Of a stretch of DNA of 36,933 nucleotides, positions 25,204 through 34,874 are shown in pieces. The notes beneath the pieces are model-generated. The model worked only from the letters and a program-made list of their open reading frames with translations. It had not been told where the DNA came from and did not search any database. The DNA lies in assembly GCA_003141245.1 (NCBI GenBank), contig PLLE01000028.1, positions 1 through 36,933 on the forward strand, in the 5' to 3' direction. How positions within the stretch are numbered: the first letter of the stretch is position 1; every line of letters starts with the position of its first letter. The stretch comes from Chloroflexota bacterium. Lineage in GTDB: Bacteria > Chloroflexota > Limnocylindria > Limnocylindrales > CSP1-4. A program made the translations under genes and the position numbers.

Positions 25204-26499
25204 TCAGGAAGCCGTGAGGGCCTCGCGCATCAGGGCGAAGGCGCGTTCGTGGTCGCCGGAGATCGCCAGCGCGTCAGCCCATTCCCGCAGCGCCTTGCGG
25301 ACCAGCATGGGGCCCCCGGCCGCTCTGGCCAGCTCGCCAGCCATCTCGTTCGCCGCCAGTCCTCCGGTGACGTCACCGAGTGCGTTCCGGGCCCGAGCGA
25401 TCGTCAGCAGGGCATCCACAGCGGCCTTCTTGTTTTCGGTGCGCCGGGCGAGTGCCAGGGCCTCGCCGGCCTGGCTCGCGGCTGCCTCGGCCTCGCCGCG
25501 GGCCATGGCGACGCGGGCCTGACTGTCCAGCACGAATGCCAGCCACCACTGGTCGTCGAGCCGCTCGAATCGAGCGTGAGCCGAGGCCGCCAGCTCGGCC
25601 GCTTTGGTCGTGTTGCCCAGTGCCAAGTAGGACATCGAGAGGTCGTTCTCCAGCGCACCGCTCTCGCGCTCGGCCTCGCCCCGCCGGAAAAGCTCCAGAC
25701 TGGCAATGCCGGCTCGAACGGCCGCCTCGAAGTCGCCGGTCTCCCGATAGTTGTAGGCAAGGTCGTACAGGTAAGAGGCGCGTCGCCGGTCGTCGAGATC
25801 CGCGGCCTGGCCACGTACCTCCTCCAGGTACGCCAGCGCGGCGGCGTGGTTGCCCTCGCGGGACTCGTTCGTCGAGAGGGCCATCAGAAGGCGGGCCTGG
25901 AAGTCGGGCTCGACATGGAGGCCGGTCCTCACGCGTGCCAGGATCGAGTGCAGGATCGCTTTGGCCTCGGCCGTGTTCTCGCGCTGGAAATGGGCCGCGG
26001 AGAGCCAGTACTCGGCCAGGGCCGCGTCGGCATCGCGACGTCCTGCGCGGAAGAGCTCAGCGGATTCGGTCGCCAAAGTGATGGCCTCCCCGACCTGGCC
26101 TGCGCGGACCAGCGCTTCGGCCAGGCCCCGCAGCAGTTCGGCCCGTGCGCCCGCAGAGGGAGAGGTCTCGAGAAGGTCGTGGTAGGCGTCGATGGCCTCG
26201 TGCCAGCGACCGCAGGCTAGGAGCAGGTCGGCTTCCAGCCGCGCCCACGCGGCCGGCTCGTCGTTGATGAGCTGACTCGCCGGAATGCCCAGGCGCGCCG
26301 AGAAGTGATTGAGGGCCGCCATCGACGGCCTGCTCAGGCCGTTCTCGAGGGCGCTGACGTACGCCTTTGTGTAGCGCGGATCGGCGAGTTGCGTCTGCGT
26401 CAGGCCGGCCGCCAGCCGGGCTTTCTTCAGGCGCTCGCCGATCTTGCGGGCGAGGGGGGAATCGTCGACTCGGGGACGGGTGCTGCTGACTCTTGCCAT
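25204..26499 (-). CDS. XRE-type HTH + TPR regulator (RRNPP-like architecture)
   Basis: HTH: IGERLKKARLAAGLTQTQLADPRYTKAYVSALENGLSRPSMAALNHFSARLGI; then ~350 aa of TPR-like helices (e.g. ALAYLEEVRGQAADLDDRRRASYLYDLAYNYRETGDFEAAVRAGIASLELFRR). Confidence 0.9.
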   Translation of the reverse strand: MARVSSTRPRVDDSPLARKIGERLKKARLAAGLTQTQLADPRYTKAYVSALENGLSRPSMAALNHFSARLGIPASQLINDEPAAWARLEADLLLACGRWHEAIDAYHDLLETSPSAGARAELLRGLAEALVRAGQVGEAITLATESAELFRAGRRDADAALAEYWLSAAHFQRENTAEAKAILHSILARVRTGLHVEPDFQARLLMALSTNESREGNHAAALAYLEEVRGQAADLDDRRRASYLYDLAYNYRETGDFEAAVRAGIASLELFRRGEAERESGALENDLSMSYLALGNTTKAAELAASAHARFERLDDQWWLAFVLDSQARVAMARGEAEAAASQAGEALALARRTENKKAAVDALLTIARARNALGDVTGGLAANEMAGELARAAGGPMLVRKALREWADALAISGDHERAFALMREALTAS

Positions 26500-26556
26500 G
26501 GCCGCAGTTTACGCCGTGTCTCAAGCAGTGGGAACAGGTGTCATTGCATGTGCGCC

Positions 26557-26583
26557 CAATGGTCAAGTAGCACTTGACCATTG
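26557..26583. promoter_or_regulatory. Candidate operator: perfect 12-bp inverted repeat with 3-bp spacer
   Basis: CAATGGTCAAGT-AGC-ACTTGACCATTG, between the divergent HTH-TPR gene and the mini-protein ORF. Confidence 0.85.
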
Positions 26584-26603
26584 CCTTCGGACGCTTCTAC
26601 GAT
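26574..26603 (+). promoter_or_regulatory. Candidate sigma70-type promoter for the mini-protein gene
   Basis: -35 TTGACC (26574-26579), 18-bp spacer, -10 TACGAT (26598-26603); the -35 lies inside the inverted repeat. Confidence 0.65.
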
Positions 26604-26672
26604 TCCCGGGCCGACCGAGCCGCGCCGGCCGGGTTTCCAGGCGGGCGATCACCTCCCGAAAGGAGTCGCTCG

Positions 26673-26792
26673 ATGTCTCACCGTTCCTTCAGCCTGCGCG
26701 CCTTCGTCCTGGCCTGGATCCTGGCAGTGGCTCTGGCATTGCTTCCGCTAGCGACTGTGCTTGCGGGCGCGGGAGTGACCATCTACCCCTGA
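26673..26792 (+). CDS. 39-aa exported mini-protein, putative signalling pro-peptide
   Basis: MSHRSFSLRAFVLAWILAVALALLPLATVLAGAGVTIYP*: basic N-terminus, hydrophobic core, VLA/AGA signal-peptidase-like sites. SD GAAAGGAG (26658-26665) lies 7 nt before ATG. Confidence 0.72.
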   Translation: MSHRSFSLRAFVLAWILAVALALLPLATVLAGAGVTIYP

Positions 26793-33819: not shown

Positions 33820-34743
33820 TCACGCCAGGGTAGCGGCGTCACCTGTCCTGCTTCTGCCGGGTGGCCCTGGCTCCAGGCTACCTACCCGGCCGCAACCATC
33901 CGGACCAACTTGCGTCGGGTGGGAGTTGGGCCCGATCTGCGGGCTCGGCGGCCACTTCCGAGTCCCGTCCATCGCATTTCGGTCGACTCGCTGAGCGTGG
34001 TTGGCCGTCCCGGCTCCATCTCGCCACCGCGACACTCGCTGCCGTACCGAGAAGCCCTGCCCAATTACCGCTCCGGTGGAATCGGGCCAGAAGCAGATGC
34101 CAGACTCGGCGCCGCCCGCGGGATTGCGGAACAGAGGCCGCAGTGCCCGCCCGTCACGAGGCAGGGACGAGTGAAACAGGTTCCGGTGGGCTCCGACCCG
34201 CCTGCGGTTGGTACGCGAGTCGCCGACGATCAGCCAGACGCTCACCGAACGAGCTTTCCAGCCCCGCTCGGCAGCGATCCGGACAGCCAAACGTCGTTTG
34301 CGGTCGAGCGTGCCCAGGATTTCGTCGATGTCTACGATCGCCGTCTTGAGTTCGATAACGACAAGTGAGTCGGTGGCTTCGTGCCAGGCGAGCAGGTCGA
34401 CGACACCGCGCTCACCGTAGATCGCAAAAGAGACTTCGGCGACGACGCTCCACCCTGGCTGGCGGCCGATCCAGAAAGCCACACGTTCGCCGAGGGCCGC
34501 GTGTCGGGCACTCACCAGTCGATCCAGGTCGCCGCCTTGCCATCGAGCTACGAGATCCAGGCGGATGCCCACCTTGGCCGCAATGGCGCGAACTGCCCCG
34601 ACCGAGAGCCGCCCGAAGTCGCCGTGCTCGAGTCGTGAGACCAGCGAGTCCGAGACCCCGGCCATCTGCGCGAGATCCTGCTGACGCAGGCGGCGTCGAA
34701 TGCGCGCGGCCCGGAACGCATAGCCAAGTCGCATGTCATCCAC
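33820..34743 (-). CDS. HTH (XRE)-domain protein with PD-(D/E)xK nuclease-like core
   Basis: HTH: FRAARIRRRLRQQDLAQMAGVSDSLVSRLEHGDFGRLSVGAVRAIAAKVGIRLDL; nuclease-like core: ERGVVDLLAWHEATDSLVVIELKTAIVDIDEILGTLDRKRRLAVRIAAERGW. Start is GTG 34743 or ATG 34734. Confidence 0.8.
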   Translation of the reverse strand: MDDMRLGYAFRAARIRRRLRQQDLAQMAGVSDSLVSRLEHGDFGRLSVGAVRAIAAKVGIRLDLVARWQGGDLDRLVSARHAALGERVAFWIGRQPGWSVVAEVSFAIYGERGVVDLLAWHEATDSLVVIELKTAIVDIDEILGTLDRKRRLAVRIAAERGWKARSVSVWLIVGDSRTNRRRVGAHRNLFHSSLPRDGRALRPLFRNPAGGAESGICFWPDSTGAVIGQGFSVRQRVSRWRDGAGTANHAQRVDRNAMDGTRKWPPSPQIGPNSHPTQVGPDGCGRVGSLEPGPPGRSRTGDAATLA

Positions 34744-34874
34744 CCAAGAAGGATGAATGCCGGCCCTTATCCCCGACTTACACGCCGGTTCTCCAGCAGA
34801 GCCCGGAAGGGAAAGCGCGCGCCACGCGCTAGAGTTGCCCAAGAGCAGGGGCCGGACGCTCCGGCACGCGATCG

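Follow-up and report, generated by a model that had tools for sequence, protein, structure and literature searches.

The DNA analysed here, referred to as the window, is a stretch of 36,933 nucleotides from a 2.54-Mb draft genome, 92% complete, of an uncultured soil Chloroflexota bacterium. It contains a gene for a protein with a helix-turn-helix (HTH) followed by tetratricopeptide repeats (TPRs), referred to here as the receptor, and a divergently oriented gene for a micropeptide, with 173 bp between the two start codons (26500-26672; Table 1). A sequence-only reading of this DNA had described the pair as an HTH-TPR regulator beside a short exported peptide, and its coordinates and sizes were right; we likewise see the Shine-Dalgarno (SD) sequence and the signal-peptide-like part that it reported.

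Table 1. Features of the receptor-peptide locus and of two further genes in the window
Feature	Position	Strand	Basis
HTH-TPR receptor/regulator gene, 431 aa	25204..26499	-	ORF, Pfam, AlphaFold2 model, class-wide orthologues
XRE-type HTH, residues 20-74	26278..26442	-	Pfam HTH_31/HTH_3, alignment
Nine TPR hairpins, residues 82-429	25213..26256	-	DSSP of model, column entropies
Probable receptor gene promoter, TTCCCA-17-TAAACT	26506..26534	-	Read from sequence, corresponding bases kept in relatives; inferred
Perfect 19-bp dyad GGTCAAGTagcACTTGACC, putative operator	26561..26579	.	Sequence; variants in relatives at same place
Peptide gene promoter, sigma-70-like, TTGACC-18-TACGAT	26574..26603	+	Promoter scan; kept in genus
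Shine-Dalgarno AAGGAG, 7 nt before ATG	26660..26665	+	Sequence; conserved in relatives
Peptide precursor gene, 39 aa, MSHRSFSLRAFVLAWILAVALALLPLATVLAGAGVTIYP	26673..26792	+	ORF; relatives' orthologues, selection, class-wide recurrence
Signal-peptide-like part, residues 1-31, ends VLA	26673..26765	+	Hydropathy scan; cleavage site inferred
Predicted mature peptide GAGVTIYP, 8 aa	26766..26789	+	Tail alignment; maturation inferred
NUDIX domain fused to HAD hydrolase, 421 aa	26950..28215	-	
Second HTH_31 ORF	33820..34842	-	
HTH of second HTH_31 ORF	34540..34728	-	

A divergent receptor-peptide gene pair

Pfam assigns HTH_31/HTH_3 and TPR_12 domains to the receptor, and its AlphaFold2 model (mean pLDDT 89.5) consists of the HTH and then nine TPRs. 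The stretch RYTKAYxSALE within the HTH is almost invariant in the alignment, while column entropies identify R87, D91, E128, and N285 as invariant and R132, Y164, and R203 as near-invariant positions of the TPRs. From the numbering of positions within TPR helix A, we infer that these conserved polar residues lie on helix A and face the groove. When the receptor profile was searched against solved structures, kinesin light chain and LGN ranked first through their TPRs; RRNPP proteins matched the same query through the HTH of PlcR (E 4.4e-8), the TPRs of RapH (2e-7), ComR (4.6e-5), and NprR (1e-4). A Foldseek search with the model also placed LGN on top, followed by the PlcR-PapR-DNA complex (5.7e-7), RapI, and Rap-CSF, the RRNPP structures being among the bacterial matches. 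Generic peptide-binding TPRs (i.e., LGN and kinesin light chain) outscore RRNPP proteins for this receptor. The Pfam model RNPP_C has no match in the window's genome; the same model detects only 1 of 14 control genomes. The NCBIfam model NsdA_fam_reg matches the receptor weakly (24.3 bits, cut-off 75). Matches in PADLOC and PHROGs are to HTH regulators only, and a role as a defence regulator was rejected given that the PADLOC matches cover just the HTH. The receptor at one other locus (L029, G003:C45) lacks approximately 40 residues in TPRs 6-7, with the peptide gene there intact. The genome contains 21 HTH_31 matches, including the second HTH_31 ORF of the window.

The 39-aa ORF has no match in Pfam, NCBIfam, or PHROGs. 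Its signal-peptide architecture, like that of the other precursors, was assigned by hydropathy and cleavage motif without SignalP, and we read the precursor as MSHRSFSLRAFVLAWILAVALALLPLATVLA followed by GAGVTIYP, referred to here as the tail. Cleavage after VLA is inferred from the (-3,-1) rule and from the constant tail length in relatives. The window's tail has 8 aa because its last codon is missing; a ninth residue is present in all close relatives.

The promoter of the peptide gene is the sole promoter match in 600 bp (mean of shuffles 0.0), and its -35 box lies inside the right half-site of a perfect dyad whose centre is approximately 40 bp before the inferred transcription start. The probable receptor promoter implies a nearly leaderless receptor mRNA. 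Variants of the dyad (GTTTANNAATACTTGACC) are kept at the same place in relatives. The perfect dyad occurs once in the genome, with 20 near-matches (<=3 mismatches) vs 16 in the control, and across 37 genomes a relaxed form allowing one mismatch had no copies away from receptor/peptide loci (none in the control). Because the perfect dyad is unique and the relaxed form is confined to these loci, no regulon or targets were found. With the dyad over the -35 box and its variants only at receptor/peptide loci, the putative operator makes it most likely that the receptor regulates the peptide gene; position alone cannot tell activation from repression.

Recurrence of the pair in Limnocylindria

Homologues of the receptor in the GTDB genome set come almost entirely from MAGs named 'Chloroflexi bacterium' from fens, soils, and groundwater, including CSP1-4 and the assembly QHBO01. 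The class Ca. Limnocylindria includes the lineages CSP1-4, QHBO01, and P2-11E (PMC10608941; PMC13212565), and we infer that the window's family (f1) is CSP1-4, that f4 is QHBO01, that f3 is P2-11E, and that f2 is Limnocylindraceae. Most genomes of f1 and f4 encode the receptor, and f3 has a distant version. A search of 19 f2 genomes did not find it; genomes of f2 are approximately 1.1 Mb. When 400 genomes of the phylum were searched, receptor matches at E <= 1e-36 outside the class were limited to four genomes. The homologues place the pair in Limnocylindria, and the non-Firmicutes background supposed in the sequence-only reading is upheld. One locus, L072, is labelled Steroidobacteraceae yet has a pair of the Limnocylindria type, with its receptor in the f4 clade; the contig was probably mis-binned.

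We scanned the flanks of the receptors in six frames for micro-ORFs with fixed criteria (i.e., SD, hydrophobic core, basic N-terminus, and 28-59 aa). For 77 of the 105 distinct receptors a micro-ORF lay no more than 700 bp away, in 141 kb of scanned sequence, vs 2 in 210 kb of more distant control flank. A few of the 77 are probably spurious (e.g., L079 and L165), and since coding sequence is denser in the control flanks the contrast does not amount to a formal probability. Leaderless ORFs, a frame-shifted ORF at L030/L094, and convergent or tandem cases were found by reading the flanks; 58 receptor-peptide pairs were tabulated. The ORF at L030/L094 appears to be shifted by one base immediately ahead of PFPK, which is likely an assembly error. 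It had been proposed that short signal-peptide ORFs with a conserved C-terminus should recur divergently beside homologues, and that homologous loci lacking any small ORF would refute the pair. The recurrence was borne out and that refutation failed; pairs across the class are divergent, tandem, or convergent.

Within the genus (15 pairs, i.e., the window and 14 relatives), the ORF starts 162-176 bp from the receptor start. Neighbours encoding PPDK, the NUDIX-HAD fusion, and an aldo-keto reductase are essentially common to the genus only; elsewhere the neighbours differ and the pair persists. In many other f1 genera an HTH-only gene of approximately 95 aa overlaps the start of the receptor gene or directly adjoins it, with the peptide gene beyond the HTH-only gene (L023-L027, L030, L036, L058, and L110). 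Its product is approximately 35-47% identical to the receptor HTH and is perhaps a heterodimer partner of the receptor; most members of the window's genus lack the gene. No peptide gene was detected near some receptors, including one whole clade (L068, L073, L074, L078, and L105). On this evidence the clade could possibly consist of eavesdroppers, or its peptide could be encoded elsewhere; it resembles the 'eavesdropper' receptors described for RRNPPA systems (PMC9765709).

We next consider selection on the precursor. A very short ORF in GC-rich DNA may arise by chance or be mis-called. For the peptide ORF, pN/pS was 0.47 in frame vs 1.17 and 1.55 in the two alternative frames, and two other ligand groups gave 0.54 and 0.56 in frame vs 0.95-1.94 out of frame. 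Among the six closest species, pN/pS was 0.27 for the whole ORF and 0.68 for the tail, i.e., the tail evolves faster. Absence of purifying selection on the 39-aa ORF would have spoken against the pair, and that objection falls. Since orthologous ORFs lie at the same place, selection acts in frame, and micro-ORFs recur across the class, the 39-aa ORF is not a chance ORF. With the SD and promoter conserved as well, chance is refuted for the gene pair and retains practically no credence as an explanation.

Peptide tails and ligand forms

The tails are nearly always 9 aa long and follow an AxA-like end of the signal part, with the consensus xGGGxx[FWY]P[HRK]. Among 51 aligned tails, position 4 is mostly G, position 7 is aromatic or aliphatic, P occupies position 8, and position 9 is mostly H, R, or K. 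The alignment was anchored on P, which the ORF-finding screen did not use. Examples are DGGSTIFPH, GGGSTIYPH, GGGGTSYPH, DGAGVSFPR, and GSGGSPFPR. One f4 (QHBO01-like) clade has 12-aa ORFs that lack a signal peptide and keep the tail (MRSAHTGGGWPS, MRSATTGGGWPL, and MRQVTNGSGFPQ); a sister with a signal peptide ends in VTNGNGWPH. Leaderless precursors occur at L032, L033, L080, L083, L086, L091, L097, and L109 (12 aa, that of L109 longer), most with a strong SD. The precursor at L093 repeats its tail (DLAGAPWPK...DLAGAPWPR). The leaderless and repeated variants suggest, as far as sequence can, that the tail is the functional part of the precursor.

Several f4 genomes contain a second receptor with its own, different peptide, ending in ADNGKGSWP, ANKPPPGWP, or ADGQPPIPR; the gene for the ADGQPPIPR peptide lies 3' of its receptor gene in convergent orientation. 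The f3 precursor is encoded upstream of its receptor and in tandem with it, and two cysteines flank the tail (e.g., CDPEGSGGHC and CDPTDTGGLC), as in all 16 members of one f3 receptor clade (L153-L161 and L166-L172). These tails may be closed by a disulfide, or the Cys after the cleavage site may be lipoprotein-like. Second paralogues in f3 have further kinds of ligand, including PEDPGFGG repeats at L237. Neighbours such as MFRLFALIATVVAAVLAVADTLPGPR also accompany the four receptors from outside the class. Mapped onto the receptor tree, ligand form changes 14 times vs 43.7 times with shuffled labels; ligand form follows receptor clade. A partial Mantel analysis found no covariation between groove and tail once general receptor divergence was accounted for (partial r -0.03 vs 0.02 +/- 0.10 for random sets matched for entropy).

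These data bear on what the micropeptide does. It could be a secreted antimicrobial or membrane-active effector that the HTH-TPR protein controls through another ligand or partner. A secreted hydrophobic precursor apparently controlled by the adjacent regulator, an operator only at the peptide promoter, and the lack of groove covariation with the tails all fit such an effector. We nevertheless hold it to be unlikely; the tails have only 8-9 aa, tails are repeated or encoded alone in leaderless ORFs, ligand form follows receptor clade, and no immunity or export gene was seen to travel with the pair (only the window's neighbours were compared). A small membrane toxin silenced by an HTH-TPR repressor, as in a toxin-antitoxin module, would likewise place a short hydrophobic ORF by an HTH regulator with an operator over the ORF's promoter, and would agree with the restriction of PADLOC and PHROGs matches to HTH regulators. 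Conservation extends to the polar tail after the cleavage motif rather than to the membrane segment alone, however, tail-only ORFs exist, and nine conserved TPRs would have no place in a simple repressor. We consider such a module very improbable.

The peptide could also stay inside the producing cell and act on the receptor there, serving as a timer and not as a signal between cells. The QHBO01-like clade, in which a 12-aa precursor has the same tail and no signal peptide, speaks for such cell-autonomous feedback. Yet most precursors, including that of the window, keep the signal-peptide architecture under purifying selection, and the short streptococcal SHP and ComS precursors, which lack Sec signals, are still exported, by PptAB (PMC9765709). 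We think it quite unlikely that feedback is confined to the producing cell. The sequence-only reading of the locus as a peptide-receptor pair is supported by recurrence, the conserved C-terminus, and selection; the role of the peptide as ligand, its export and re-import, and RRNPP membership of the receptor by descent are inference.

A probable RRNPP-like signalling family outside Bacillota

The pair shares features with several known systems. As in PlcR/PapR, an HTH-TPR regulator lies beside a short precursor with a Sec signal (predicted here) and a C-terminal oligopeptide, and an operator (putative here) lies at the peptide promoter. Of the solved structures, PlcR comes closest to the receptor HTH, and PlcR-PapR-DNA is among the Foldseek matches. 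Unlike PlcR/PapR, the pair belongs to Chloroflexota rather than Bacillota and is usually divergent, the receptor has nine TPRs in 431 aa and no RNPP_C match, and the tails are Gly-rich and end in [FWY]P[HRK]. In Rgg/SHP and ComR/ComS the receptor also adjoins a tiny peptide gene and binds its promoter (putative here), and one Limnocylindria clade has some even shorter precursors without a Sec signal; in contrast to PptAB-exported SHP and ComS, which lack signal peptides, most precursors here have predicted ones. Rap lacks an HTH and targets response regulators, and both ligands and phylum differ from Rap/Phr and NprR/NprX. Shared with these systems are the TPR superhelix (RapI and Rap-CSF in Foldseek) and repeats of the predicted mature peptide in one precursor (L093 and L237), as known for NprR, Rap, and AimR precursors (PMC9765709).

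AimR/AimP (arbitrium) also combines an HTH-TPR receptor with an adjacent exported peptide, export being a prediction here. A phage arbitrium system was rejected, as there are no phage genes near the pair and its metabolic neighbours (PPDK, NUDIX-HAD, and aldo-keto reductase) are conserved in the genus. Generic HTH-TPR regulators, such as the NsdA family of Streptomyces, have the same domain order, but the receptor scores far below the NCBIfam cut-off, and we know of no conserved exported micropeptide partner of NsdA. The receptor traits of RRNPP(A) systems, a C-terminal TPR superhelix, usually with an N-terminal HTH (by Pfam and the model), and a small precursor gene immediately beside the receptor, are both present. 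RRNPP(A) ligands are linear C-terminal peptides of about 5-10 aa; the inferred mature peptides here would be of similar size, at about 9 aa, but those of the sister family f3 are Cys-bracketed. Hallmarks of RRNPP pairs include an adjacent precursor, a C-terminal pheromone, repeated pheromones, leaderless short precursors, and orphan receptors (PMC9765709). Every one of them has a counterpart in Limnocylindria; binding, transport, and response remain inferred. The system appears to work like RRNPP, and common descent with RRNPP is unproven.

We propose that the 39-aa precursor would be exported by Sec and cut after VLA by signal peptidase I, releasing a peptide of 8-9 aa (here GAGVTIYP) that would accumulate outside the cell and then be taken up by an Opp-type importer. 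Inside, it would bind the concave TPR groove of the receptor, which, probably as a dimer, would sit on the 19-bp dyad, covering the peptide promoter's -35 box. Peptide binding would change transcription of the peptide gene, most likely by positive feedback as in PlcR/PapR or Rgg/SHP, and the receptor might have further, unidentified targets. Signal peptidase I is present in the genome. That no importer is visible in the window, as observed earlier, is correct; three oligopeptide-binding proteins (SBP_bac_5) are encoded elsewhere in the genome. We consider it likely that the locus is a self-contained peptide-signalling cassette, with cleavage, export, import, binding, the sign of regulation, and density dependence all inferred. 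Weighing against this reading are the lack of groove-tail covariation, of a visible regulon, and of a detected peptide gene near some receptors, the missing ninth residue of the window's own tail, the higher scores of generic TPRs, and the failure of RNPP_C to match, although that model also misses most control genomes. Since the pair recurs across the class and the peptide endings change by lineage, the peptides are probably used to talk between bacteria. Our best reading is an RRNPP-like family of exported peptides and intracellular receptors outside Bacillota, for which binding, export, re-import, and outputs are inferred.

Surveys of RRNPP systems have been limited to Bacillota (Firmicutes), their mobile elements, and viruses (PMC10075063, PMC9765709, PMC12700828). 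Our literature search for RRNPP or peptide quorum sensing in Chloroflexota (Chloroflexi) yielded no report of such a system, with most subscription papers and all preprints outside its scope. We lean towards the view that Chloroflexota, chiefly Limnocylindria, have their own large peptide-receptor family, which arose or diversified independently of Bacillota RRNPP, has several ligand chemistries (i.e., Gly-rich linear nonapeptides ending in P[HRK], Cys-bracketed and possibly disulfide-closed peptides, tandem repeats, and leaderless 12-mers), and was lost in the genome-reduced planktonic Limnocylindraceae. Synthetic ligands such as GAGVTIYP, DGGSTIFPH, and GGGSTIYPH can be tested at once, and approximately 100 natural receptor-peptide pairs are already at hand for studies of specificity. 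The absence of the pair from genome-reduced planktonic relatives offers a way to ask whether its loss mirrors a lost social life. A comparable system in an abundant, mostly uncultured phylum of soil and sediment would extend intracellular peptide signalling beyond Bacillota and would bear on the origin of this form of signalling.
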